Below are positions 46,207-63,908 of a stretch of 64,000 nucleotides of DNA, piece after piece. Made by a program: the position numbers and the translations under genes. Below the pieces are notes generated by a model. It did no database searches and was not told the origin of the DNA. It worked only from the letters and a program-made list of their open reading frames with translations. The stretch spans positions 3,069,192 through 3,133,191 of the forward strand of contig JAHBVT010000001.1 in the NCBI GenBank assembly GCA_019637355.1, written 5' to 3'. Origin of the DNA: Gemmatimonadaceae bacterium (lineage in GTDB: Bacteria; Gemmatimonadota; Gemmatimonadetes; Gemmatimonadales; Gemmatimonadaceae). Position 1 is the first letter of the stretch; each line of letters starts with the position of its first letter.

Positions 46207-46284
46207 ATAGCATGGTGTGCGTGAACAGTCGAGGTGAATCGGCCCGGGTTTGCCGGAGGCTCCACATCGTGAGAGGTTGGAGCC

Positions 46285-47510
<1,226 letters not shown>

Positions 47511-47540
47511 CCGAGTCTCCGGGAATCCCGGGCCGATTCA

Positions 47541-47662
47541 GCTACCAGGAGTCCCACCGACGTGATGCCGCGCGATTCGAGCACGACCACGGGAAGTGTC
47601 GCCAGCGCGGCGAATACCACCAAGCCTTCGAGTGTCGACTTCGACTTCTGAGGCCGTGTCAT
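47541..47662 (-). pseudogene. N-terminal stump of a voltage-gated channel-like gene
   Basis: An ATG at 47662 opens a frame reading TLEGLVVFAALATLPVVVLES and ending in GLLVA exactly at the IS3 boundary. This resembles the first helix of bacterial ion-channel proteins. The rest is not on the other side of the IS, which suggests an IS-linked deletion. Too short for certainty. Confidence 0.45.
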
Positions 47663-47707: not shown

Positions 47708-48514
47708 CTAATTGGTCACCTCTGCCGCGACCGTTGCCTTGGAGACACCTGTGGGCTGGTCCTCTGTCCTGACGCGCTGCGCTTTGCGAGCGACGCGCGC
47801 GAGACTCCGCCTCGCAGACTCGGCCTTCTCACCTTCGAGAATCTCGCGCTTCAGGACGTCGGTGCGAAGCACCGCCTGAATGAGTTCCGAGTCGATTCGC
47901 GTGTCAGGATTGAGGCGACGAAGCTCGCGACGGAGAACACCAACCACAGAATCGCTGCATACAAGTGCCCCGATTGCGTACTTACTCAACGCCTCCTGCT
48001 GCGCGGCAAAATCTTCGAGATGGCTCTTCAGCCAGCCCTCCTTCGAGAGCAGCCATAGCAAGGCAAGGTCTTCGTCCTTGCGAGGACTCAAGAGCGAAAG
48101 GTCGACTTCTGCGACAAGCGTGTGCTCAATTGGTTTTCCGAAGCCGACTCGATACACGAGCCAGCGTGTTCCGTTCGTGAGCGTTACCCACTCGCAACCT
48201 TGGTTTGCTGCGTAGTCCACCGCCTGCTTAACGTGATTCTCCTTGAGTCCGAGTCCTGCGGACTTCACCTCGATAAGCCACGCAAGCTTGCCATCGAGCT
48301 TTACCGCGAGATCGCAGTACGTGCCCCGAATTGCGTGCTCGGATGTGACCTCGGCGTACTTGTCGTATCCAAGAATCTCCGCGAGGATGTCCTTAACGAT
48401 GGTCACCGTATCAGCCTCGGTGACATCTCTCGCGCGCGCCCCGTCGAGAATGGGCTGAAAGCGCTTCAAGCCAGCTGCGAGGCGGGAACTGACCTTTGCG
48501 GGAATCTTAGACAT
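47708..48514 (-). CDS. HsdR N-terminal-like PD-(D/E)XK nuclease
   Basis: 268 residues from ATG 48514. The type-I-restriction R-subunit N-terminal domain is evident: ILGYDKYAEVTSEHAIRGTYCDLAVKLDG with the active aspartate near residue 68, then WLIEVKSAG giving E82-x-K84, and VKQAVDYAANQGCEWVTLTNGTRW. No helicase motor is attached. Lies 155 bases downstream of the Cys/His-rich gene on the same strand; could be the nuclease of that module or an independent gene. Base composition is visibly less GC-rich than the backbone. Confidence 0.82.
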   Translation of the reverse strand: MSKIPAKVSSRLAAGLKRFQPILDGARARDVTEADTVTIVKDILAEILGYDKYAEVTSEHAIRGTYCDLAVKLDGKLAWLIEVKSAGLGLKENHVKQAVDYAANQGCEWVTLTNGTRWLVYRVGFGKPIEHTLVAEVDLSLLSPRKDEDLALLWLLSKEGWLKSHLEDFAAQQEALSKYAIGALVCSDSVVGVLRRELRRLNPDTRIDSELIQAVLRTDVLKREILEGEKAESARRSLARVARKAQRVRTEDQPTGVSKATVAAEVTN

Positions 48515-48669
48515 GGCACCGAGTGTTGAATAATTCGCTTCTGCGGAGGGCGAGTAGGGCCGCTGCATCCTAACATAAAGTGAAGCACTGGCCTCACAAT
48601 CGCTACTGCGCCTGAGCTCCGAAACGGAGACAGCGACGAAGGCCACCGATGATGATAATGTGCCCCAAC
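48515..48669. promoter_or_regulatory. Spacer between nuclease and Cys/His-rich gene
   Basis: 155 AT-richer bases. It should hold the nuclease gene's own promoter, or nothing if the unit is one operon. No clear terminator hairpin was found. Confidence 0.25.
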
Positions 48670-50802
48670 CTAAACGAGACGCTTGGTTCCGAGCACCGAC
48701 TTCATTCTAGCTCTCTCGGCTCGGTCCGATCCGTGTCGCAGCACGAAAACGACCTTCCGCGTCCAGCCCAAGTCAGCCTCGACGATACTGTGCGTGGCAT
48801 CCCGCGCCGAGCGCCACGATTTTGCCCGCATCGCATCTTCAAATAGCTCATTCGCCGGAGTTAGCCACTCCTGTGCGGGTGCTGAACGCGGCCGCAAGTT
48901 AGCACAGGTTACACAAAGCTTCTCAGGTGCAGCACGATCAGCGGCGCACACGTGTCGCCCGCAGGACGTGCATTCAAAACGATGGCGGTCACACGAGCGC
49001 CGCTCGCACACTGGGCATTCGTGAGTCCCTGTTAGCGAGAACGCGGCTCCATCGACGTGGCAGGTGGTGCGATGGGACTCGCACGCCTTCTCTCCGCGAC
49101 GATCGCCGAGTTCGGACAGGTGCCTGTCGCAGTGAAGGGCGAGATCTTCGGCACATATCCCTAAGTGTTCAGCACACGCCATCGCGCCGCAGCTCGAGCA
49201 CGGTGAGATTTCATCGACCGCGAACACCGCGGTAGGCTCGTACGCACACACCGCCCTGTCATTGACGCACACCAAGCGTCGAGAGCGATCGGTACGCCGG
49301 AGGTGCGTCGAGCAGTGAACGTGCCCATCTACTTCGCAACGCGCCTGGTGGTCCTCACACACAACTCGCTCACATGTTGCACACCCCGACACCTCGTCAG
49401 GCCCCACCAACTCGTTCGATCCTCCCTCGCAGCGCCGTACACATCGGGCGCAGAAGCGCCTAGCTCCGCGCGGCGCGTCAGCGGCAGAGTGAGAAGCGTG
49501 GCTATCGCAGACCTTGTCTCCACAAGTCGCGCACATCGCTATGCAAGAAGTGCAGGCGGGATGCCCTCCATCCTCGCACTCATCCTCGTGCGAACTACAA
49601 TGTGAGCGGAGGCACGACACGCAGGTGCGAGCGTGTGCGTCGCACGCGGGCTGCGAGTCCACGTGGCAAGCCGCGATTCCGTGCTTCTCACAGAATGAGT
49701 CCTCGCACACCGAGCACTCACGATCACACGCAGAGCAGGTCACGTGATCGTGCCGGCAGACCGACACATCCTTCGGAGCCTTCGCGCCACAAGCTGGACA
49801 GCCAAAGTGCCAGTGTCTGTCGCCAGCAAGCACGCGCTCAGCAGTCGCCTGTCCACGATGTCCGTTCGAAGTCAGCGTCCAATGCGCCCGTTGAACCAGC
49901 ACCTGCCATTCGGTAAGCTGAACTGGGTGGACGACCGCACGTACGTCATGGCGATCGCGTTCCTCTGCGAGCCGCCTGTCGCGCTCAGCCTCGAACACGC
50001 GCCTCGCATCACGATCGGGGATGGCAGTTCCGCGGCCGCCGCCCTCCTCCAGCATAGACTGATAGTATCGCTGAATGCGACCACTCTCGTGGGTGAACTC
50101 CCGCTCGGCCTTCTGGCGCAGGCGCTCGATCTGGGGCTCCAACGCAACCCTCAGATCCCCAAGCATACGGCTCACGAGATCTGAAGCGGGCATCGCGGTC
50201 GCTACTGGCGGTCCCTGAATCAGGGCGCGAGACTGCGCAGATAAGAGCTGACGCTCACACTCGGTGGCGATGTCCGCGCCCAGCGCGACTCCTGAGACTG
50301 TGTCATACACCTGGCTCTCCACCAGATGCTCCTCGAGCGTCGCCCCTGCGCGAACTGCGACACGAGCGGTAAGGCGCCCCACACGATGAATCGCGATGGA
50401 TGACTCGGCTTCAGCGGCCTGGCCACGCTTCACAGATGCCGGAAGCGAGGGTTGCGCACTCGCCTCGGCCTCCTGAGCGCCCACAGAGCCGGCAAAGTAG
50501 CGCGCGCCGCGCCCACGGACCGCGGCGATGAGCTGCTCAACAAACGCGCTGCCGACGATGGCCATCTCGGCGTCGGCATCCGCTTGGATTGCCTCAAGTG
50601 AGAAAGCCAGCCGCACATTCGAGCGGTTTCCGAACGTGCGGCGATCAGCAACCGGGATCGTCAGCTCATACAAATGCGGTGAGAGTTCGGTGAGCGAAGC
50701 ACCCGTATGTGCGGCGTAGCGATCAATCAGATCACGAACGTGGCGGTCCCCGAGCGTCTCGTGTTCGAGGCCTTCGGGGTGGCTCGACGCACCTTCGCTC
50801 AC
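48670..50802 (-). CDS. Large Cys/His-rich protein, helicase partner
   Basis: 710 residues. The first ~330 residues are Cys-free and begin HVRDLIDRYAAHTGASLTEL, loosely like YqhG, the neighbour of the SNF2 helicase YqhH in Bacillus. From about residue 340 to 640 come many CxxC...H/C units such as CPACG, CSACDRECSVCEDSFCEKHG, CATCERVVCEDH and CTSCGRHVC, enough for several zinc ribbons or RING-like modules. Its ATG overlaps the helicase stop by 4 bases. Likely a DNA- or protein-binding scaffold for the helicase. Family not recognised. Confidence 0.7.
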   Translation of the reverse strand: MSEGASSHPEGLEHETLGDRHVRDLIDRYAAHTGASLTELSPHLYELTIPVADRRTFGNRSNVRLAFSLEAIQADADAEMAIVGSAFVEQLIAAVRGRGARYFAGSVGAQEAEASAQPSLPASVKRGQAAEAESSIAIHRVGRLTARVAVRAGATLEEHLVESQVYDTVSGVALGADIATECERQLLSAQSRALIQGPPVATAMPASDLVSRMLGDLRVALEPQIERLRQKAEREFTHESGRIQRYYQSMLEEGGGRGTAIPDRDARRVFEAERDRRLAEERDRHDVRAVVHPVQLTEWQVLVQRAHWTLTSNGHRGQATAERVLAGDRHWHFGCPACGAKAPKDVSVCRHDHVTCSACDRECSVCEDSFCEKHGIAACHVDSQPACDAHARTCVSCLRSHCSSHEDECEDGGHPACTSCIAMCATCGDKVCDSHASHSAADAPRGARRFCARCVRRCEGGSNELVGPDEVSGCATCERVVCEDHQARCEVDGHVHCSTHLRRTDRSRRLVCVNDRAVCAYEPTAVFAVDEISPCSSCGAMACAEHLGICAEDLALHCDRHLSELGDRRGEKACESHRTTCHVDGAAFSLTGTHECPVCERRSCDRHRFECTSCGRHVCAADRAAPEKLCVTCANLRPRSAPAQEWLTPANELFEDAMRAKSWRSARDATHSIVEADLGWTRKVVFVLRHGSDRAERARMKSVLGTKRLV

Positions 50803-52934
50803 GAGGACGCTCGCACGAGGGGCGCCTCCGCATCAGCGTCAATCTCAATGAGCATCATAGGTAGCGAGTCCGCCTTCACCATCAAGTGGACTGCCCGCTG
50901 CCGGTGTGTCAGGCCAGAGATGCGATAGACGGGCCCGTACTCTCTCACGTGATCCTCCTCCACGTGCGCGTGCTCAAGCGCCTCCAGAATCTCGTTCTCG
51001 TGAAGGCCAATTGCTTGACGCCGAGAGTCGACGCCCTGCTTCTTCTCGAGAAGCCGTGTTCCATAGCCAAGACGAACACGCGAGGCAGGCGGCAAGTGCC
51101 GAAACTCGCGTTCAAGCCGCATCGCATTGTCATCTGCCGCAATATCGGAATTCAGCTGCTCTTGGAGCAATCCCTCGTCACGGCTCGCAGTGATCCGTTG
51201 CCCAATACCATCGATGAGACGCTCAAACTCTTCCTCCGTACCGGCCTCGAGGAACTTGGTCGTCAGTTCGGTCTCAAGTGCGTCAGCCCCTCCAAACTCG
51301 CCAAGAATGACATCGAGCTCCCCGACGACCAACTCGAACAGCTTGATCTTCTGGTCAAGGAGCTTGAGCACGTGCGCCTCAATCGTCTGCTCAGCGGCCA
51401 GGTTGATGATGTGCGCGTCCCTCGTCTGACCAATCCGGTGGATGCGGCCGATACGCTGCTCGACAATCATTGGATTCCAGGGCAACTCATAGTTCACCAG
51501 AACATTGCAGAACTGGAGATTCAACCCCTCAGTGCCAGCGCGCGTCGATACAAACACGGCGTCAGGAGTGTTCTTGAACGCGTTCAGGCGCTTCACTCGC
51601 TCGTCTCGGGAAAGTCCCCCTTGATAGATCACGGCGCGTCGCCCAAGCGATTCCACCGACTGTCGAATCAGATCCAACGTTGGCAAATGCTCGGAGAATA
51701 CGATGACCTGCTCAGTGTGCGTCCCGAGGAGGCGCTCTAGAGTCTGGAGCTTAGCGTGCTCGCTTACATCACGAGCGAAGCTCGCTAGCTTCAGCGCGTG
51801 CTGCCGGTACTCTGGAGTGATGAACTCACCCTCAGCCATTCGCTCCAGCGAAACGCCAAGTGCGGTGGACGATGAACATAGCCGCCGACAGAGGCGCATA
51901 AGCTCTAAAGTGAGAATCCCTTTTCCTGTGTTGCGCTTTCGCCGCGCTCGATCTTCCTCTGCCTCTTCTCGCGATGGCTGGATGAAGCCCTTCCGATAGA
52001 GCTCTCGTAGGTAGCCAACCGAAGCCTGATACAACGCGCGCTCTGGCGGAGTCAACCGAGTGATTGGGTGCAGCGGTATTCGCTTGGGCAGTTCGAGCGC
52101 GTGAGCGACGCTAGAGCGACGAGTGCGGACCATGACCTGAGAGGTCAAGTCTTTGAGCGCGCCCGGGTCTTTCACGCGTCGCCGATCGCCTCTCACGAGA
52201 TAGCGCTGCGCGAACTCTGTCCAAGTCCCTAGCTGTCCCGGGCGCAGCAAGGTGATGAGGTTGTACAGTTCACGGAGGTCGTTCTGAAGGGGCGTCGCGG
52301 TCAGCAGGAGGATGTAGTTTCGCCGAATCTCTTGAATAAACTTGTACGTCGCCGACGACTCGTTTTTAAGCTTGTGCGCTTCGTCAAGGATGACGAGGTC
52401 CCATTGGTGACGGAGGATGGCCTCACGATGCTTTTTGGTACGAGCTCGGTCGTACGAGGCGATGCCCCGTGTAACGCGCCGCCATTCGTCGGGGCCCGTG
52501 GGCGCATCGAAGTTCTCAAAGAACTTTGATTCCAGCTCGCCCTGCCACTGATCTACGAGCGCTGCTGGCGTGAGAATCAGGATGCGCCGAGCCAGTCCGC
52601 GGACGACGAGCTCTTTTAGAATGATGCCCGCTTCGATGGTCTTTCCGAGCCCGACCTCGTCGGCGAGGAGCGCGCGCCCTCCCATCTGGCGGAGAACGGT
52701 AAGAGCGACATCGATCTGGTGCGGCAGCTCCTTTATGGTATTCGCGTTCAGCGTGATTAGGGAATCGAATCCTGGAACAAGAGACAGGCGTTCCGCCGCG
52801 CGGCGCAGGTCGAACCATTCACGGCTGTCAGGTTCCCGCTGAAGAGCGCTGGAGAACTGGGCCAATGATGTCTCGTCGACTGTCCACAACTGGGTAAGTG
52901 TTCGCATGGGTGTCGTGGGAACTCGCGGACTCAT
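50799..52934 (-). CDS. SNF2/RapA-like DEAD/DEAH helicase
   Basis: 711 residues from ATG 52934; MRTL at 52907 is an alternative start. Full SNF2 motor: Q-like LPHQIDVALTVLRQMGG, Walker A ADEVGLGKTIEAG (near residue 91), DEAHKLKN, TATPLQNDL, and motif VI VEQRIGRIHRIGQ. The first ~65 residues are family-specific. Likely a DNA translocase. Coupled to the Cys/His-rich gene by a 4-base overlap, so the two form a unit. Its 5' end runs into a half attC site. Confidence 0.92.
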   Translation of the reverse strand: MSPRVPTTPMRTLTQLWTVDETSLAQFSSALQREPDSREWFDLRRAAERLSLVPGFDSLITLNANTIKELPHQIDVALTVLRQMGGRALLADEVGLGKTIEAGIILKELVVRGLARRILILTPAALVDQWQGELESKFFENFDAPTGPDEWRRVTRGIASYDRARTKKHREAILRHQWDLVILDEAHKLKNESSATYKFIQEIRRNYILLLTATPLQNDLRELYNLITLLRPGQLGTWTEFAQRYLVRGDRRRVKDPGALKDLTSQVMVRTRRSSVAHALELPKRIPLHPITRLTPPERALYQASVGYLRELYRKGFIQPSREEAEEDRARRKRNTGKGILTLELMRLCRRLCSSSTALGVSLERMAEGEFITPEYRQHALKLASFARDVSEHAKLQTLERLLGTHTEQVIVFSEHLPTLDLIRQSVESLGRRAVIYQGGLSRDERVKRLNAFKNTPDAVFVSTRAGTEGLNLQFCNVLVNYELPWNPMIVEQRIGRIHRIGQTRDAHIINLAAEQTIEAHVLKLLDQKIKLFELVVGELDVILGEFGGADALETELTTKFLEAGTEEEFERLIDGIGQRITASRDEGLLQEQLNSDIAADDNAMRLEREFRHLPPASRVRLGYGTRLLEKKQGVDSRRQAIGLHENEILEALEHAHVEEDHVREYGPVYRISGLTHRQRAVHLMVKADSLPMMLIEIDADAEAPLVRASS

Positions 52935-52966
52935 CGCGAGCGTCGGCTGCAAGCGTCGTTATCTGG
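52935..52966 (-). other. Half attC site (R''-L'' arm) of the kinase cassette
   Basis: On the minus strand this reads CCAGATAACGACGCTTGCAG, the R''-L'' arm of the local attC type. Its first nine bases are the exact complement of the kinase cassette's own first bases (GTTATCTGG at 53876-53868). The matching L'-R' arm is not found downstream; the helicase gene starts there instead. A broken cassette end. Confidence 0.65.
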
Positions 52967-52974
52967 CGCGCGCA

Positions 52975-53853
52975 CTACTCGGCAGGTGAGTTGAGATCGC
53001 GCCACATCTCCAGTGATGAAGCTGTGCGGTAGACCGCATGCCGGCGAAGCGCCTTCTCGAGGGCAAAGTTATAAGGGGCGGGAAGCGTTAACGCGAGAGC
53101 GCGCGGAGCTCCCGCAAGGACCTCCTCAACTGTGAAGCTGAGCTCCTTGCCGAGCGCTAGCTGGAGAAAGAGTAGCCCCAAGTGATAGATGTCCACCCGA
53201 TAGTCAATCGGGCCGAACTCATCGGGGTCAAGAACCTCAGGCGGGAGCATCCACTGCGCGCGAGTATTCTCAACGCGCAAGTCTCCCGCGACCTTTGCGA
53301 CGCCGAGATCCGCCAGCTTGAACTGAATCGCCTGATACTCATCCGGGGCGACCTCGTCGTACGCGTACGAGGTAAAAACATTGCCCAGGTGAATGTCTTG
53401 ATGAACGAGGCCGGCACCGTGAACGTGTGCGACAGCCTGCAGAATGCAGCGCGCAACCGGACGTCCCCAGTCTCCCACCAAATAGTCAGGCAGTGAGAAA
53501 AGGGAGGAAACCGGCTCCTCGCAGCGCTCCGTGACAATGTAGAATGTGTCCCGATACTCAAAGGCATCGTACACGAACGTGATGAACGGGTGGCGCAGAA
53601 AAAGCAGTTTCTGAAACTCGGCCTCTGCCTTTGCGCGAACTTCCTCGTACGATCCGACCGGCTTTAGTACCTTCGCGGCCAGCTGATTGTCCCATACGTC
53701 AGTGCAGGCGTATGCGACACCGAAATGGCCCTCGCCAAGCTGCTCACCCATGACAAAGGTGTTGCCGGTGGCGAGGCTAGTGATGACCTCTCCGGGCTCG
53801 GGAACCACTACACGCTTCAGCTCACCCAGTGGTCCTGAGACTTCCTTTGACAC
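52975..53853 (-). CDS. Ser/Thr protein kinase-like protein in an integron cassette
   Basis: 292 residues from GTG 53853 with a GGAGAGG site. Eukaryotic-type kinase motifs: Gly loop LGEGHFG (39-45), AAKVLK lysine 61, HQD in place of HRD (151-153), metal asparagine 158, DLG in place of DFG (182-184) and PPE for APE (204-206). Catalytic Asp and Lys are kept, so activity is plausible. No sensor or membrane domain. The gene fills a single cassette: its left border is the R' box 15 bases before the start and its stop lies 9 bases before R''. Confidence 0.85.
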   Translation of the reverse strand: MSKEVSGPLGELKRVVVPEPGEVITSLATGNTFVMGEQLGEGHFGVAYACTDVWDNQLAAKVLKPVGSYEEVRAKAEAEFQKLLFLRHPFITFVYDAFEYRDTFYIVTERCEEPVSSLFSLPDYLVGDWGRPVARCILQAVAHVHGAGLVHQDIHLGNVFTSYAYDEVAPDEYQAIQFKLADLGVAKVAGDLRVENTRAQWMLPPEVLDPDEFGPIDYRVDIYHLGLLFLQLALGKELSFTVEEVLAGAPRALALTLPAPYNFALEKALRRHAVYRTASSLEMWRDLNSPAE

Positions 53854-54018
53854 TGATCCTCTCCGGTCCAGATAACGTGTGCTTCTGCTGCGAGCGCTTC
53901 CATAGTTGGTATGAAGCGGCGGCTGGACCTCCGCCCATCCACGGGTGCAAGGTTCTGCCCCATACCATCTACCGTGCTCGCCGTCTCGCGACGGGGCACA
54001 CTGCGGAGGCCAGCCGCC

Positions 54019-55062
54019 ATGGATATGATAGGCATCGATCTCCACAAGCGCGAGAGCCAGCTCTGCATCCTCGACGGGCAGGGCGGCGTCACCGAACGAC
54101 GCATCGTCACGAGCCGTGACCGCTTCACCGCGGTGCTGGGCGCGCGTCCGCCCGCGCGGATCCTCGTCGAGGCGTCGACCGAGAGCGAGTGGGTCGCGTG
54201 TCACCTGGAGGCGCTGGGCCACGCGGTCGTCGTGGCGGATCCGAACTTCGCGCCGATGTACGCCACGCGCAGCCGCCGGGTGAAGACGGACAAGCGCGAT
54301 GCGCGGACCCTGGCTGACGCGCTCCGGCTCGGCGCCTATCGTCCGGCGCACCGCGTCTCGGCGGCGCGGCGGCATGTGCGCGCCGAGTTGGCGGTGCGCG
54401 AGGCCTTGGTCCGCACACGCACGCGATGCATCGCGCTCGCCAAGGCCCTCGTGCGCCGCGACGGCCTGCGCGTGCCGAACAGCACGGCCGCGTGGTTTGT
54501 CGAACGACTCACCGCGCTCCCGCTCTCGCCGGTGCTGGCGGCCGAGCTCGCGCCGCTGGTCGCGATCCTCGCGCCGCTGAACGTGCAGATCGCGGCCGCC
54601 GACGCGCGCATCGCGGCGCTCGGGCGGACGGACCCGATCGTCGCGCTGCTGCAGACGGCCCCCGCCGTCGGGCCGGTGACGTCCAGCGGCATCGTCGCGA
54701 TCGCGGATGACATCGGCCGGTTCCCGTCGGCGCACCAGTTCGAGGCCTTCCTCGGGTTGGTGCCCGGGGAGCGGAGCTCGGGCGAGAAGCGGCGACTCGG
54801 CCACATCACGAAGGCGGGCAACCGGCGCGCGCGCTATCTCCTGGTCGAGGCGGCGTGGCGCATCCTCCGCTCCAAGTCAAGCGACACCGCGGTGTTGCGG
54901 GCGTGGGCGCAGCGCATCCTGCATCGCCGCGGCACGAAGATCGCGGCGGTCGCGCTGGCGCGGCGGCTCGCGGGCATCCTCTATGCGATGTGGCGGGACC
55001 AGCGGGCGTACGACGCGGGCCACCTGCGGACGCCGCAGCCCGTGCCGGCGTCCGCCGCATGA
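54019..55062 (+). CDS. IS110/IS1111-group transposase (DEDD recombinase)
   Basis: 347 residues from ATG 54019, GGAGG site upstream. N-terminal DEDD domain: MIGIDLHKRESQLCIL (first Asp), ILVEASTESEW (Glu), TDKRDARTLADAL (Asp pair). C-terminal Transposase_20 domain with TAPAVGPVTSSGIVAIADDI and the serine region LGLVPGERSSGEKRRLGHITKAGNRRAR. Full length; appears intact. Confidence 0.92.
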   Translation: MDMIGIDLHKRESQLCILDGQGGVTERRIVTSRDRFTAVLGARPPARILVEASTESEWVACHLEALGHAVVVADPNFAPMYATRSRRVKTDKRDARTLADALRLGAYRPAHRVSAARRHVRAELAVREALVRTRTRCIALAKALVRRDGLRVPNSTAAWFVERLTALPLSPVLAAELAPLVAILAPLNVQIAAADARIAALGRTDPIVALLQTAPAVGPVTSSGIVAIADDIGRFPSAHQFEAFLGLVPGERSSGEKRRLGHITKAGNRRARYLLVEAAWRILRSKSSDTAVLRAWAQRILHRRGTKIAAVALARRLAGILYAMWRDQRAYDAGHLRTPQPVPASAA

Positions 55063-55319: not shown

Positions 55320-55419
55320 ACAGAAAAATGCGGTTGTGGGGCCGCTGCCGTCCTTCCGCATCGTGGAGCAGGGGCCCCACAACCGCTACCGGATCTGCGC
55401 TTGTCGGCAGCAAGCGTCG

Positions 55420-55935
55420 TTATGGCGCAGGAGCCCGCTGCGCGCACTCATCGAGGACGGCAATCACCGTGTCGAGCACGGCGACAACGTCCCACAACTC
55501 ATCATCGTCGAGCGCGGGGTCGTCGTCCACGCCGGGGTCATCGGAATCCTTGCCAATGACCGCATCGAAGACGGCGGCAATCAGGTGCGGCTGCGGCGAC
55601 CCATGGAACATCTGCTCGGCTGGATAGCCGGCGTCGACGAGGGCCGCGGCGTCCGCGATGCGCTTTTCGGACCGCTCAAACTGCGCCGAGATCTGATCTT
55701 CGGTGGCGGGCCGGGTTCCGGGGCGATGCTCGCGGTAGATCTCGTAGCACGCAACCATGCAGTCTCGGGCGACTTCCTGCGCGTCCTCGCCGAGGTGGTG
55801 CGTGAAGCCGAGCACGAAGCCGGTCAGCTCGTCTTGAAAGGGGCCGGACCTAGCCTCGAGCTTCGCCCACTCCTTCGGCGAACTCCGCATCACGCGCGTC
55901 CAGGTCGCAGATACCTGCGCCGGTGTGAGTTTCAT
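55420..55935 (-). CDS. Integron-cassette protein, unknown (171 aa)
   Basis: 171 residues, MKLTPAQVSATWTRVMRSSPKEW, mostly helical and acidic towards the C-terminus (DDPGVDDDPALDDDELWD). No family recognised. The start lies 17 bases from the R' box of the preceding attC and the TAA stop sits inside the R'' box of its own, the compact layout of an integron cassette. Confidence 0.7.
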   Translation of the reverse strand: MKLTPAQVSATWTRVMRSSPKEWAKLEARSGPFQDELTGFVLGFTHHLGEDAQEVARDCMVACYEIYREHRPGTRPATEDQISAQFERSEKRIADAAALVDAGYPAEQMFHGSPQPHLIAAVFDAVIGKDSDDPGVDDDPALDDDELWDVVAVLDTVIAVLDECAQRAPAP

Positions 55936-55951: not shown

Positions 55952-56051
55952 CGCCATAACGTTCGCTTCTGCTGCGGACACTCCAATAAGATGCGCCGGC
56001 GTAGCCGGCGCTTCAATATCGTGGCCGTCGGCAGCAAGCAGCGTTATGCGG
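55952..56051 (-). other. attC site
   Basis: 100 bases. Plus strand CGCCATAACGTTCGCTTCTG on the left and CAGCAAGCAGCGTTATGCGG on the right, with a central GCGCCGGC/GCCGGCGC palindrome. Minus-strand R'' is CCGCATAAC, the exact complement of the 5' end of the cassette it closes (GTTATGCGG at 56537-56529). Confidence 0.87.
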
Positions 56052-58011: not shown

Positions 58012-58151
58012 GTCTGGCTAACGTGTGCTTCTGCTGTGAACGCTCAATAAGAAGGGTTTGGCGGGGCGTCCGCAACCAGCCGTCCCCATCACGGACGCCC
58101 CGCCAAACCCACTCCGCACCGCGTTCATCAGCAGCAAGCGTCGTTATGGCG
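58012..58151 (-). other. attC site (long type)
   Basis: 140 bases: plus strand GTCTGGCTAACGTGTGCTTC on the left, CAGCAAGCGTCGTTATGGCG on the right, and an inner perfect stem GGGTTTGGCGGGGCGTCCG/CGGACGCCCCGCCAAACCC. The right arm has one extra base, placing R'' on the right and the reading direction on the minus strand. Confidence 0.88.
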
Positions 58152-58327: not shown

Positions 58328-60001
58328 TCAAGTCTCTCGCTCAACGAACACCTCGGCTGACCGACACACATCACAGTGTCCGTCCGAGCCCTCTTCCCAG
58401 TAACTGATGTCCCGAGCGGTACTTAGTACGTCAACAGAGATGTCGTCCACGTCGCGAAATAACGCTTCAGCATCGCCAGCGAGAAGAAGAGCAAAAATGT
58501 GTACGACGGGCGCAGGGCCGCCCCGAGCGCGAAGTCGCAGTACGGTCTCGGCCGCTGCCGATCCGGTTCCTACAAGGTCGTCCACGACTAGTACCCTTGC
58601 TGGAGTTGCATCTCCGAGATCCATCTCGTAGTCGGTGGTCGCGGACTGCGTGCCAGGCTCTGCAGCAGCTGAGCTCGACGCGAACGTATATGTAAAGGGA
58701 ACCCTGAGTGACAAGCCGATGATGCTCGCCATCTGAGCGCCGCAGGTTCCAACGCCAATCACGCGCTCGATGCCAACATTCCGATAGTGTTCTGCGGCTC
58801 CGCGCCCGAGATCGCTGAGGAACTGGCCGTCACCGAGCAAGTTGCCGAAACGATAGTAGCGATTGCAGTGCCATCCCGTTCGCAGCGCAGTATGTGCGGC
58901 GCTGTCCAGAAGGCGACCGCTCGCCTCGCACTCGCTAATCTTGTTGGCCGCGCGCGAGAGAAAGGAATTGCTCCCAGCGATGGTACTAGCCCGCGTCGCG
59001 GGGCCCTGCGGTGTCGCCGCTTGCTGCCTCCGCATGGAAGAGATGTACGTACGCAGTCGCACAGGGAAGTGCTCGATTGCGTGCAATCGGTGATCGGCGA
59101 TTCGGACATCGACGAGTGCTGGGCGGTTCTGCCCCACTCTTAGGAACGGCTTGACGCGTTCAGCCTCTTCGCGCATCCGACGCACGCGGTAATGGTCAAT
59201 GAGAAAGCGAATGCCGTCAATCTCATCCTCCTTCGCCGCATCCGGGAAGCGCGGAAACAACAGGATTCCAACTCCCGCGGTAGCATCGATGCGTACGTCG
59301 TGGATGTAGTAGCAAGCCGCCCAGTGGGAGAGAGTGAGATCATCAAGCGCGTCGGAGGTTAGACGCGAATAGTCATTAATTCGTGAGTAGTCGTTGTCGA
59401 TCTCGTCGGCGAGCCTCAACGCCGCCGCAAGCAGCTTTGCACGCAGCGGAAAGTCCTGCAACCCAACGTCGTCCTCTGCTAGAGAGACAACCGCATTCCA
59501 TGTCTCATCACCGCTGTGAGCCGCACCAATCTTGGCAGCGGTTCCGAACAGCGAATTGTACGGTAACGCATGTCGCAGCGTTGGAATCCCGTCTCCCGGC
59601 GCCGACGCAAGCGCACGCCGAATCAGTGAAATGCAATTCGGCGCGTGTCGTCGCCGCGATTCCTCGAGGCCGAGGCGCGTGGACGTGGGCTCGTAGTGAT
59701 CCCACTGCATCCCCGTATCGTGGATTAGCGCGGCTACGGCGAGGGTCGCACGCTCGAGGTCGCTCAGCTGCTGCTCGCGCGGATGACCCGACAGCACCTT
59801 GCCGAGGATCAAGAGCGCACGCCTTAGCACGCTGTATGAGTGCGATAGGCCGTGGTCAACAAACTGAGTGTGCATCGGAGTCGCCCAGATCGACGCGGAG
59901 TAGTCATACGCGAACTCGATCCAACGATTAAGATGGATTCCACCGGGCATGTGCGGATTCGACACACCCGCCTGATTCACAAAGTCTTCACGCTGTCTCA
60001 T
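58328..60001 (-). CDS. HD domain + phosphoribosyltransferase protein
   Basis: 557 residues from ATG 60001, which overlaps the previous stop by 14 bases (the frame is open 27 codons further). N-half is an HD phosphohydrolase: DHGLSH (49-54), ALIHDTG (H94-D95), H162 and LADEID (D199). C-half is a type-I PRTase with PRPP loop VLVVDDLVGTGSA (near 470). A final CDVC could bind zinc. Resembles HD and PRTase conflict effectors predicted in bacterial nucleotide-based immunity. Last gene of a three-gene operon. Confidence 0.8.
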   Translation of the reverse strand: MRQREDFVNQAGVSNPHMPGGIHLNRWIEFAYDYSASIWATPMHTQFVDHGLSHSYSVLRRALLILGKVLSGHPREQQLSDLERATLAVAALIHDTGMQWDHYEPTSTRLGLEESRRRHAPNCISLIRRALASAPGDGIPTLRHALPYNSLFGTAAKIGAAHSGDETWNAVVSLAEDDVGLQDFPLRAKLLAAALRLADEIDNDYSRINDYSRLTSDALDDLTLSHWAACYYIHDVRIDATAGVGILLFPRFPDAAKEDEIDGIRFLIDHYRVRRMREEAERVKPFLRVGQNRPALVDVRIADHRLHAIEHFPVRLRTYISSMRRQQAATPQGPATRASTIAGSNSFLSRAANKISECEASGRLLDSAAHTALRTGWHCNRYYRFGNLLGDGQFLSDLGRGAAEHYRNVGIERVIGVGTCGAQMASIIGLSLRVPFTYTFASSSAAAEPGTQSATTDYEMDLGDATPARVLVVDDLVGTGSAAAETVLRLRARGGPAPVVHIFALLLAGDAEALFRDVDDISVDVLSTARDISYWEEGSDGHCDVCRSAEVFVERET

Positions 60002-61037
60002 CAGCCTTGTCGGGAACGAGTGAATCTGAATGAGCACGCCGGAGATACTGTATGCGATTTCCAGGCCAGCACAGTGAGTCAAGCCGTCGTCCTTCTACCA
60101 ATATCGGTCGTGCTATATCGAGATCATACAGGGCAATCACCCTTACCACTTGGCCATCGTTGACGATTGCCAACAGTTGAAGCAGGTCAATCTCTCGCCC
60201 AGTGGAGATGACGTCCTCAATAACAACGACATGTTCTCCTCTCGATATGGCATCGCGCAGTCGAGTGGGTGAGAGGAACGGAAAAGGGCCGAGCCGGTCA
60301 ACTACTGCAACTCGGACTTGTGGACCAAGAAGTGCCTGCATCAAGGTCGCAAGCACTGCGGACGTGTTGTTTCCCGTAAGGATGGTCAAATGCTGGTAGT
60401 CTTCGCGGAAGTCGTCGGTATATGCTCTCACAAGCAGGTAAGCAATCTCCAAGGCACGCTCGTGACCCGTAGTCAGGATACGCTTTACGTCAATCCAAGT
60501 GTTTGCGAGAGTGCTGTCGGGCATCCTGCGGTAGCGCCGTCCCTCAGGCGGAGCACGAAGCACTTCTGTCGTTAGCAGCGAAGCGAGATAATCATTGAGC
60601 CAAGCGCGTCGTAAGTCCCGAAAGCTCGCGCCGTGATCAAGCACGTTGCCCGGAGCGCGCCCGGATCCCCCAAGAATCTCGACTACGCGTGCCTCGGGTG
60701 ATGAATCGACCGCGACAATCGTGCAGGGCTGAGCAGACGCTATCCCTGAGTTGCGAACGAGAAGTGATTGCCGCAGGACCAACACAATGGGCCGCGCGGA
60801 TGCAAGCAACTCAATTGGCCGAAGGCGCTCACGATCCGACAAGCTTTGGACGCAAGTCAGGTCGACGAATACGGTGTAGTCTTCGGGTTGCTGCCGGATT
60901 GCAGCTTCCAGCACCTGCAAGTCGCGCTCTTGGCCGTAGTTCAGTCTTGTCCTGTAGAGCGGTTCCGACGATTCATCGTGTATAGCTTCGCGCAGTGCGA
61001 CGTGCAGCGCGTCTACAATGAACAGACGCTCTAGCAT
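59988..61037 (-). CDS. Phosphoribosyltransferase-like protein
   Basis: 349 residues; ATG follows directly after the TAG of the upstream gene. The PRPP motif is HVVVIEDVISTGRE (about 269-282), with the nucleotide-side TILTGNNTSAVLA earlier. The N-terminal ~130 residues are a separate alpha/beta domain (YTVFVDLTCVQSLSDRERLRP). Does not look like pyrE, upp or purine salvage enzymes. Middle gene of the operon. Confidence 0.78.
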   Translation of the reverse strand: MLERLFIVDALHVALREAIHDESSEPLYRTRLNYGQERDLQVLEAAIRQQPEDYTVFVDLTCVQSLSDRERLRPIELLASARPIVLVLRQSLLVRNSGIASAQPCTIVAVDSSPEARVVEILGGSGRAPGNVLDHGASFRDLRRAWLNDYLASLLTTEVLRAPPEGRRYRRMPDSTLANTWIDVKRILTTGHERALEIAYLLVRAYTDDFREDYQHLTILTGNNTSAVLATLMQALLGPQVRVAVVDRLGPFPFLSPTRLRDAISRGEHVVVIEDVISTGREIDLLQLLAIVNDGQVVRVIALYDLDIARPILVEGRRLDSLCWPGNRIQYLRRAHSDSLVPDKADETA

Positions 61038-62024
61038 CTATCGTCTCCTCTGCGCGGAGTCCGGTACCACAAAGTCGATGAGAATCTGCGTGCCCGGCAG
61101 GAATGGTACGCTTCGCGCGGGAAGTGTCTCGATGCGACCGGCGAGACCATCAACTGAGCCAGTACGAGTGCCTTCATCAAGGCGCAACTCAAGTCCGCCA
61201 GAGCGGAGGACGAATCGGCCTCCCCAGCGAACCACCGTCTGCGCAACATGGAAGAGCCCTGGAACGCGCGGTCGGTAGTAGCGAAGCAGCAGCGCGGCGT
61301 GCAACGGAGATGGGGCTGAGAAATCGAGTGCTTGGCGATCGAGTGTCTCAGCGACCCCACTTCCAGAGTCGGTAATCGCAAGACGCACGAGAGTGTGTCG
61401 AATTGCTTGTAGTGCGAGAAAACCTGATGTCCGTCCGCTCCAGCCGACGAGATTCTTCAGAATGTTGTGAATGGCGTGAGCTAAGATGCCCGCCCATTCG
61501 GAGGCGTCACTTGTTGGATCTAGGCCCAAGCGTCGAAGCATTACTCCCGAGAGTAGCAGGTCATCGAGAGAGTGCTGTACGTGCGAGATCGAAGCCAGTG
61601 AATCAAGACGCGTGAGCCTTGGTCGCCCTAGAATAAAACTGTCATCAGGGCGGCCACTCCAATCGATTAGTTCCTCTCCGTCCAGAAAGGCGACGCGCGA
61701 CGCGGCATGGAGGAAGCCGCAACGGAGCAGCTCTGACTGCTGTCGCTCGGACGCTGGGAGTCGACACACAATGGGATGTCCCCGATCGAATGTTGACTCG
61801 AAGAGCGACGCCAAGAGAGTGAGGCCATCGACGTTGAGATAGTCGAATCCGCCAATATCTACTCCAACCGTAGGGCTGTCGCCCGCCGCATGCTCGAACG
61901 TTGGTGCGCGCACAAGAAGGGACTGAATCTCTCGTTGCCGGGCAAGTGCGCTAACGACGTCCCAGCCGAGGCGCTTGCTTGAGCTCGAAGAGGCAAACTT
62001 GAGAAGCGAGAATACACGTGACAC
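61038..62024 (-). CDS. STAS-like + GHKL ATPase protein
   Basis: 328 residues from GTG 62024 with GGGGAGG upstream. Residues ~52-90 (VGVDIGGFDYLNVDGLTLLA...PIVCRLP) look like a STAS domain. ~178-225 hold a GHKL-type N-box (LAHAIHNILKNLVGWSG) and G1 box LAITDSGSGV. No phospho-histidine domain, so not a classic sensor kinase. The same frame stays open for about 220 bases further upstream without ATG, GTG or TTG, so the protein may once have been longer. First gene of the operon. Confidence 0.72.
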   Translation of the reverse strand: MSRVFSLLKFASSSSSKRLGWDVVSALARQREIQSLLVRAPTFEHAAGDSPTVGVDIGGFDYLNVDGLTLLASLFESTFDRGHPIVCRLPASERQQSELLRCGFLHAASRVAFLDGEELIDWSGRPDDSFILGRPRLTRLDSLASISHVQHSLDDLLLSGVMLRRLGLDPTSDASEWAGILAHAIHNILKNLVGWSGRTSGFLALQAIRHTLVRLAITDSGSGVAETLDRQALDFSAPSPLHAALLLRYYRPRVPGLFHVAQTVVRWGGRFVLRSGGLELRLDEGTRTGSVDGLAGRIETLPARSVPFLPGTQILIDFVVPDSAQRRR

Positions 62025-62245: not shown

Positions 62246-62361
62246 GAAGTTATGACTGGGCTGGCCCCCCGACCTCTCGTGGGTTAGCTCCCCGAGTGCG
62301 TCGGAGGTGCCAGAGCCACTGGCGACGGTGCGTCGCCCTTCCTGCAACGGAGGACCAGCCC

Positions 62362-63501
62362 ATGTCATCGGTTCCTGCAGCAGCTGCCTCAACTATCTGG
62401 CTTGGCTGGGATGTGCACAAGGCCTCGGTCACGTCGGCGGTGCTGCGCGACGGCGCGGCCCAGGCCGAGTGCGTGGACCGGCTCCCGAATGCGCTGCCGA
62501 AGCTCGAACGCTATGTGCGGCGCTGGCAGCGCGAGGGGACGGTGCGCGTGGTCTACGAGGCGAGTAGCGCGGGCTTCGTGCTGCAGCGCGCGTGCGCGGC
62601 GTGGGGCGTGGCGTGCGACGTGATCGCGCCGTCGCTGATGCCGACGCGGCCCGGCGTGCAGCGCAAGCACGACCGCTATGATGCGGTGCAGCTCGCGCGG
62701 CTGCACCGCGCGGGGGAGCTCACGCCGGTGCGGGTGCCGGCGGCCGCCGAGGAGCGGGTGCGTGACCTCGTGCGGCTGCGGACGACGCTGCAGCGCGAGG
62801 TGATGCGCTCGCGGCACTACGTGCTGAAGTTCCTCACGCGGCGCGGCTGCGCGTACGGCGCGAAACCCTGGACGCCCGCGCACCACACGTGGCTGGCGAC
62901 GCTGCTGCGGGCGCCCGCGTCGCCCTTGGAGGCGGAAGACCGCGAGATCCTGCAGGAGCACCTGGCGCTGCTGGCGTACAAGGAGGGGCGCCGCAGCGCA
63001 CTCGACCAGCGCGTGGCGGCGCTGGCGGCGACGCCGGCCTATGCGCCGCTGGTCGGGCGCCTGGGCTGCTTCCGGGGGATCGACACCTTGGCGGCGATGG
63101 TGCTCGCCACGGAACTCGGCGACTGGCGGCGCTTCGCGTCGCCGCGCGCGCTGATGAGCTACGTGGGGCTCGTGCCGCGCGAGCACTCGAGCGGGGAGCG
63201 CGAGCGCCGCGGCGCGCTGACCAAGGCGGGGAACGCGCACGTGCGGCACGTGCTGGTGCAGGCGGCGTGGAGCTATCGGCACCTGCCGCGCGTGGGCAAG
63301 CGGCACCAGCAGCGGCAGGCGGGCCAGCCGGCGGCGGTGATCGCGCACGCGTGGAAGGCGCAGCATCGCCTGTACAAGCGCTACCACCGGTTGCAGGACG
63401 GCCACGCGCGCCAGGTCGCGGCGGTGGCGGTGGCGCGGGAGTTGATCGGGTTCCTGTGGGCGGTGATGCGCGAGGAGGCGCCGCCGCACGCACAGGCGTA
63501 G
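62362..63501 (+). CDS. IS110/IS1111-group transposase (DEDD recombinase)
   Basis: 379 residues from ATG 62362 with a GGAGG site. IWLGWDVHKASVTSAVL (first Asp), VVYEASSAGFVLQ (Glu), KHDRYDAVQLARL (Asp pair) form the DEDD set; the C-terminal domain has LGCFRGIDTLAAMVLATELGDW and LVPREHSSGERERRGALTKAGNAHVR with the serine. Full length. Confidence 0.93.
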   Translation: MSSVPAAAASTIWLGWDVHKASVTSAVLRDGAAQAECVDRLPNALPKLERYVRRWQREGTVRVVYEASSAGFVLQRACAAWGVACDVIAPSLMPTRPGVQRKHDRYDAVQLARLHRAGELTPVRVPAAAEERVRDLVRLRTTLQREVMRSRHYVLKFLTRRGCAYGAKPWTPAHHTWLATLLRAPASPLEAEDREILQEHLALLAYKEGRRSALDQRVAALAATPAYAPLVGRLGCFRGIDTLAAMVLATELGDWRRFASPRALMSYVGLVPREHSSGERERRGALTKAGNAHVRHVLVQAAWSYRHLPRVGKRHQQRQAGQPAAVIAHAWKAQHRLYKRYHRLQDGHARQVAAVAVARELIGFLWAVMREEAPPHAQA

Positions 63502-63775
63502 GAGACAGCTCGGCTCGGGTTCCAGCGGCACGATAGGGAGGACGCGCGGCACACGTTATCGGGTAGCGCTCGCGAGAGCGTGGATCCCCGCGCATAGAAC
63601 GCGCCTGCTCCGGACGAATCCACTTCGTGCCGCTCCGGTCTCCTGGAGACTGACCGGCGTATAGCAGCAGGATTCATCGTCGAAGCCGCCGCTGGGATCC
63701 GAGCCCCTCGCTTCACCACCCTCGACGCGGGAGCGCCGATGTAGCTCGTGCCCTTGACGGATGCCCAGTCATAGC
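63502..63775 (+). ncRNA. Candidate bridge-RNA region in the IS right end
   Basis: 274 non-coding bases after the transposase, where IS1111 elements encode the guide RNA. It contains GCACACGTTAT at 63549-63559, which is identical to the minus-strand attC core at the element's own target site (GCACACGTTATGG when rejoined). CATAGAA near 63593 echoes the left junction. Hairpins such as CGCTCGCGAGAGCG are present. Sequence match only; no expression or fold data. Confidence 0.42.
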
Positions 63776-63908
63776 AACGTGTGCTTCTGCTGTGGACGCT
63801 CATATAAAAAGGGTTGGGCGGGGTGGCCGCAACCAGCCCAGGTCATCACGGCCACCCCGCCCAACCCATCCTTAGCTGCGGCCATCGGCAGCAAGCATCG
63901 TTATTCGG
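63774..63908 (-). other. attC site with IS-damaged R' box
   Basis: About 135 bases: plus strand AACGTGTGCTTCTGCTGTGG on the left, GGCAGCAAGCATCGTTATTC on the right, inner stem GGGTTGGGCGGGGTGGCCG/CGGCCACCCCGCCCAACCC. It is very like the attC at 58012. The left R' core is interrupted by the IS at 62246-63775. Confidence 0.83.

Follow-up and report, generated by a model that had tools for sequence, protein, structure and literature searches.

The question raised by this locus is what a free-standing eukaryotic-type kinase does among the gene cassettes of a bacterial integron, and whether it takes part in defence, a role that a preliminary description of the sequence had put forward as possible. 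The window (the whole stretch of 64,000 nucleotides analysed here, from a Gemmatimonadaceae genome) carries a stand-alone kinase gene (Table 1), whose 292-aa product matches PF00069 (Pkinase) in Pfam over residues 35-239 with E=7.2e-26. A 292-residue frame together with a match of such strength indicates that the kinase domain is real and not a chance similarity. Pfam gives this domain alone: the protein has neither a sensor or PASTA region nor any other family outside the kinases, in agreement with the earlier statement that a sensor domain is lacking. The AlphaFold2 model adopts a kinase fold (mean pLDDT 86.6), and all the matches listed for it in a Foldseek search of the PDB were kinases, of a generic kind. 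This fold and the presence of the catalytic Lys61, Glu79, Asp153, Asn158 and Asp182 place the protein among the Hanks-type kinases. Judged from its sequence, the protein is a non-RD Hanks-type Ser/Thr kinase that is complete and consists of a single domain; it is predicted to bind ATP and to phosphorylate protein. A longer frame of 609 aa beginning at 54804 was rejected, since it passes through an IS110 element and attC sequence; the true start is the GTG at 53853.

Table 1. Features of the kinase locus, in positions of the window
Feature	Position	Strand	Remarks
SNF2-type helicase ORF	50799..52952	-	flanks the array end; start near 52907 according to homologues
Downstream attC, left half only	52947..52962	-	12 nt past the kinase stop codon; truncated array end
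Kinase ORF	52975..53853	-	stand-alone Hanks-type kinase, 292 aa, GTG start
Shine-Dalgarno-like GGAGAGG	53858..53864	-	4 nt 5' of the GTG, between it and the end of the upstream attC; read directly from the sequence
Upstream attC, right half	53872..53890	-	ends 18 nt before the kinase start codon
IS110-family transposase ORF (longest start)	53911..55062	+	NF033542, 2.1e-76; element sits inside the upstream attC
Upstream attC, left half	55408..55423	-	parted from the right half, 1.5 kb away, by the IS110 element
Short attC of the next cassette, ~92 bp	55956..56047	-	left half with 2 mismatches, plus right half
Intact reference attC, 132 bp	58017..58148	-	fold -46.3 kcal/mol, z -6.97

The attC half-site patterns occur five and four times in the window, where 0.42 and 0.00 occurrences are expected, and at least 123 attC-like half-sites, but none of the reversed pattern, are present in the host genome (3.15 Mb in three contigs). 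Contig C1 carries attC arrays at its start and at about 633-653 kb, 751-781 kb, 2537-2586 kb and 3122-3136 kb, and others are located on C2 and C3; a chromosomal integron with so many half-sites over several arrays is very large. One complete integron integrase is encoded in the genome (C1:784030-784968; TIGR02249, 406 bits against a cut-off of 265), and its 3' end seems to face the nearest array, the nearest listed sites being on its 3' side. Among the 16 kinase matches in this genome, the window kinase is the sole one inside an attC array, the other 15 lying outside. Since the gene lies in an attC array and the same genome encodes an integron integrase, it is an integron cassette, and the first reading of it as integron cargo was right in substance. 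The accessible part of PMC8618304 names Gemmatimonadota as integron carriers and counts phage-related functions in the repertoire of cassettes; in that of PMC6213207, integrons appear in the reference list only. No description of a Hanks-type kinase as an integron cassette was found in the literature searched, whose coverage leaves out most subscription journals and bioRxiv preprints.

The term single-gene cassette, also used in the preliminary description, holds in part: a lone kinase does sit in the attC array, but its upstream attC is split by the IS110 element and its downstream attC is reduced to a left half. The kinase is the last cassette, at the truncated edge of the array, and has no intact attC directly 3' of its frame. 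A half-site pattern search revealed no right half for the downstream attC nearby, and this stretch folds unlike an attC site (z 0.19, against -6.97 for the intact one). With that half missing and no attC-like fold, the kinase cassette is probably immobilised and no longer excisable. The IS110 element is found in 13 copies in the host genome (window 53911-55062, loci L144-L156), which are 92-100% identical. In all 13 copies, an attC right half stands at one constant offset from the transposase gene; nine of them also have a left half at the corresponding position on the opposite side of the gene, and in a tenth it is about 40 nt off. The element is a site-specific, attC-targeting insertion sequence, known in kind (the IS1111-attC group); IS1111-family elements are described as targeting attC sites in the accessible text of PMC11187229. 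As a cassette, the kinase would have entered the large chromosomal integron, where the loss of one half of the attC belonging to it and the arrival of IS110 in the preceding one would have stranded it at the array end, a case of cassette stranding through attC truncation and an attC-aimed insertion sequence.

A search with a two-sequence alignment produced a 48% identical relative in a 25.6-kb IMG/VR contig, and a search of genome contigs with a three-sequence alignment produced 51 loci, 22 of them 40-64% identical; these 22 and the IMG/VR locus form the set of 23 loci considered below. The subfamily alignment contains 20 intact members, the window kinase and 19 others with 41-62% identity to it (L107, L109, L111 and L112 were left out for broken or truncated frames). 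Invariant in all 20 are Gly42, Phe44 and Gly45 of the glycine loop, Lys61, Glu79, His151-x-Asp153, Asn158, Asp182-x-Gly184, Thr197 and Pro204-Pro205-Glu206, with HxD read as HQD, or as HKD in deeper branches of the subfamily. The residue numbering and the conservation across the subfamily bear out the earlier account of Lys61, Asp153, Asn158 and Asp182 and of the HQD, DLG and PPE variants, and the conservation of these variants across 20 members marks them as traits of a non-RD subfamily and not as decay. It is very improbable, for this reason, that the gene encodes a decayed or inactive pseudokinase held merely as a stockpiled cassette, even if its motifs are non-canonical, the attC sites around it are damaged, and no one frame spans the full length in L107, L109 and L112 (assembly error being possible); the catalytic residues remain invariant in the 20 members. 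Kinases with an HxD motif devoid of arginine usually do not need activation-loop phosphorylation, and HQD or HKD in place of HRD suggests that it should be dispensable here too, so that either its expression or a direct trigger would control the kinase. In a maximum-likelihood tree, for which a long-branch warning affects the deep splits and the Sulfitobacter row, the subfamily is joined with a support of 96/94, apart from seven kinases of the host genome (100/100). Host phyla are interleaved within it, and the window kinase is placed weakly (88/62) beside acidobacterial members.

The subfamily spans at least nine phyla besides that of the host, and it is rare: it was detected in one of 395 genomes of the host phylum, in five of 297 genomes of the phylum of G414 and in one of 251 genomes of the order of G419 (seed genomes counted), and as one copy in each of the eight genomes searched. 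The GC content of the kinase is at least 0.05 under that of its locus at nine of the 23 loci and over it at one, the values for the window being 0.58 and 0.68. No neighbour is conserved across the 23 loci, since within 6 kb a gene is common to two of them at most, shadow frames of the kinase aside. Close homologues at fixed chromosomal loci only, the pattern that the preliminary description had named as telling against its proposal, were not what was found, as relatives of at least 40% identity lie at 23 loci with no common neighbourhood. On sequence grounds, the subfamily appears as a distinct and horizontally mobile one, travelling as a lone cargo gene. An intact attC was found beside the kinase at none of the 23 loci with a strict finder, L098 being the only relative locus with an attC-like hairpin (z -4.18), and integron carriage may be unique to the window kinase. 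No relative was found in E. coli genomes, and the best match of a plasmid search, at 32%, was on a Sulfitobacter plasmid.

The 48% relative of the IMG/VR contig is flanked by phage replication genes (helicase, exonuclease and DNA polymerase, by PHROG) and has a GC content of 0.52 against 0.65. This setting would fit a gene of phages or mobile elements that serves the element itself, through lysogeny control, superinfection exclusion or host take-over, and that was captured by the integron. However, it is the only phage-borne relative, with no other in the viral-contig scans and three weak matches in phage records, and we consider this origin improbable. Among further acidobacterial members, three of four are GC-matched to their locus, two of these with the same upstream transporter gene, and the kinase seems to have settled, or become domesticated, in one acidobacterial group. 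L170 and L172, both acidobacterial, GC-matched and with a common upstream transporter gene, apparently occupy the same chromosomal place.

Most relatives adjoin ordinary genes, and at most loci no defence or mobile-element gene was found among the neighbours examined. In several cases, they lie close to such genes: a DrmD-like helicase with a type III methyltransferase and restriction enzyme (L093), a type I methyltransferase with its specificity subunit (L096), a type III methyltransferase and restriction enzyme (L101), Thoeris ThsA, ThsB and ThsC (L113), plasmid Rep3 and KfrA (L094), a TrwC relaxase with ArdC and a tyrosine recombinase (L128), a serine recombinase (L108) and VapC (L106). PADLOC (1e-20) gave matches in the neighbours of four of 22 subfamily loci (91 proteins) and of none of 23 control loci (96 proteins), a difference with a one-sided p = 0.049 that is suggestive only, the control, loci around kinases 30-34% identical, being unmatched and its hosts almost all myxobacterial. 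L107 had no neighbour protein, which left 22 of the 23 loci. The proteins submitted were 90 of the 96 listed neighbours, six short frames being omitted (L098:3395-3781, L100:84-407, L104:10880-11197, L105:119-469, L109:8971-9291 and L109:9475-9873), together with a Thoeris protein (L113:4823-5329) added by hand after it had been recognised, on which the count of four in 22 does not depend; for the control, 96 of 124 were used. The PADLOC matches came as families, and their assignment to L093, L096, L101 and L113 was made through the neighbour annotation and the proteins submitted.

These surroundings bear on the possibility that the kinase is a horizontally spread regulator without any role in conflict, which would tune host physiology (stress or growth) and be carried on mobile DNA as any accessory gene may be. 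The ordinary neighbours of most relatives, and the fixed, GC-matched state in one acidobacterial group, are in line with such a regulator, whereas the extreme rarity of the subfamily, its hopping between phyla and its prophage, plasmid and defence-locus settings speak against it; altogether, we regard it as rather unlikely, if well worth keeping in mind. The suggested defence role, in turn, gains circumstantial support from relatives that are carried by a prophage, a plasmid and an element with a relaxase, or that lie next to defence genes, but it is weakened by the settled acidobacterial group and by a sequence no closer to defence kinases than housekeeping kinases are.

The immediate neighbourhood in the window suggests a different kind of defence, in which the kinase gene would head the downstream operon and its product would form a joint multi-gene system with its SNF2 helicase, Cys/His-rich and HSDR_N proteins. 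Kinase and helicase lie on one strand, with about 67 nt from the kinase to the likely helicase start, and both look horizontally acquired (GC of 0.58 and 0.59). Nevertheless, the helicase forms a conserved pair of its own (48670-52952, minus strand) with a Cys/His-rich protein of 710 aa that matches nothing in Pfam: the Cys/His-rich protein is present in 21 of 298 genomes of the phylum, host included, its gene is paired with the helicase in 16 of 17 loci fetched from other genomes, and none of these 17 contains a kinase match (tblastn, E<=1e-4). Moreover, attC sequence stands between kinase and helicase, and the relatives of the kinase have no such operon beside them, the only approach being the DrmD-like helicase of L093, which shows 36% identity along a part of its sequence. 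A partnership of the kinase with this operon is largely refuted by these data, and the joint system is hardly credible. The helicase and Cys/His-rich pair, together with the HSDR_N protein (47708-48646), is a candidate defence pair in its own right.

Among known kinases, one close parallel by description, and not by sequence alignment, is Stk2 of staphylococci, likewise a single kinase gene with a Hanks-type catalytic core and no dedicated partner; at the 23 loci too, one kinase gene occurs without a common neighbour. Stk2 is encoded by its staphylococcal host, whereas the window kinase is a mobile cargo gene. In the accessible part of PMC11341870, Stk2 is presented as a phage-activated Ser/Thr kinase and as the sole other kinase-based defence then known besides KKP, the module described there (PfkA, PfkB and PfpC). 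According to the same part, KKP comprises prophage kinases linked to mobile elements, toxin-antitoxin and restriction-modification genes in many genomes, a likeness to the present subfamily; however, KKP requires two kinases and a phosphatase, whereas the window kinase is single, and a regular-expression test found no frame with a PP2C-like motif near the relatives at the 23 loci. The best PADLOC matches of the window kinase are mad6 (86 bits) and PD-T4-6 (69 bits), with which it has the Hanks-type domain in common. Housekeeping kinases of the host reach 160-300 bits on the same models, which means that the resemblance is generic, and the PADLOC kinase names were rejected as functional evidence on the basis of this control; the PD-T4-6 match, at 69 against up to 300 bits, is no better than that of ordinary kinases. 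The MAD6 model is moreover longer (659 positions) and part of a multi-gene system, and in the NCBIfam comparison with the MAD6 protein of MADS the kinase attains 56 bits against a cut-off of 460. With the housekeeping PASTA kinases (PknB/Stk1), the kinase domain is likewise in common (NF033483, 37 bits against a cut-off of 450), but the window kinase has no PASTA region and belongs to a clade separate from the seven host paralogues.

Taking these lines together, an anti-mobile-element function is the best reading of the kinase, and it may plausibly serve to combat mobile DNA or to keep it under control. As an explanation of the whole, a lone, mobile, non-RD kinase that was stranded as a cassette and works as a one-gene device against mobile elements is the best available, and we give it about an even chance. 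The kinase would act alone on a broadly conserved target, a mode of action that suits a gene working in unrelated hosts. By a logic similar to that of Stk2, infection or an incoming element would trigger the phosphorylation of an essential host factor or of a phage protein, and this would stop either the invader or the cell; alternatively, the phage-borne copies could be superinfection-exclusion genes. More tentatively, and with less than even confidence, the subfamily may represent a class of anti-mobile-element kinases that is as yet undescribed, crosses phyla and works from one gene without a partner (non-RD, with HxDIHxGN, DLG and PPE motifs), carried as interchangeable cargo by prophages, plasmids, defence islands and integrons. 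In any case, a compact, partner-free, catalytically complete and phylum-crossing family offers candidates that are easily cloned, and that could be used to test Ser/Thr phosphorylation as a general currency of phage-host conflict, and a kinase is added to the cargo of integrons.

Some other elements of the window deserve mention. Between two attC sites lies a three-gene unit (58328-62024, minus strand), unusually large for a cassette, which encodes a fusion of HD-CE and phosphoribosyltransferase, its second and third genes being without Pfam match. An IS3-family element (46232-47543) carries an ALIL frameshift pseudoknot, the sole Rfam match in the window, and is bounded by 31-bp ends with 87% complementarity. 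Finally, a second, different IS110-family transposase (62296-63501) is found near another attC site (63774-63904).
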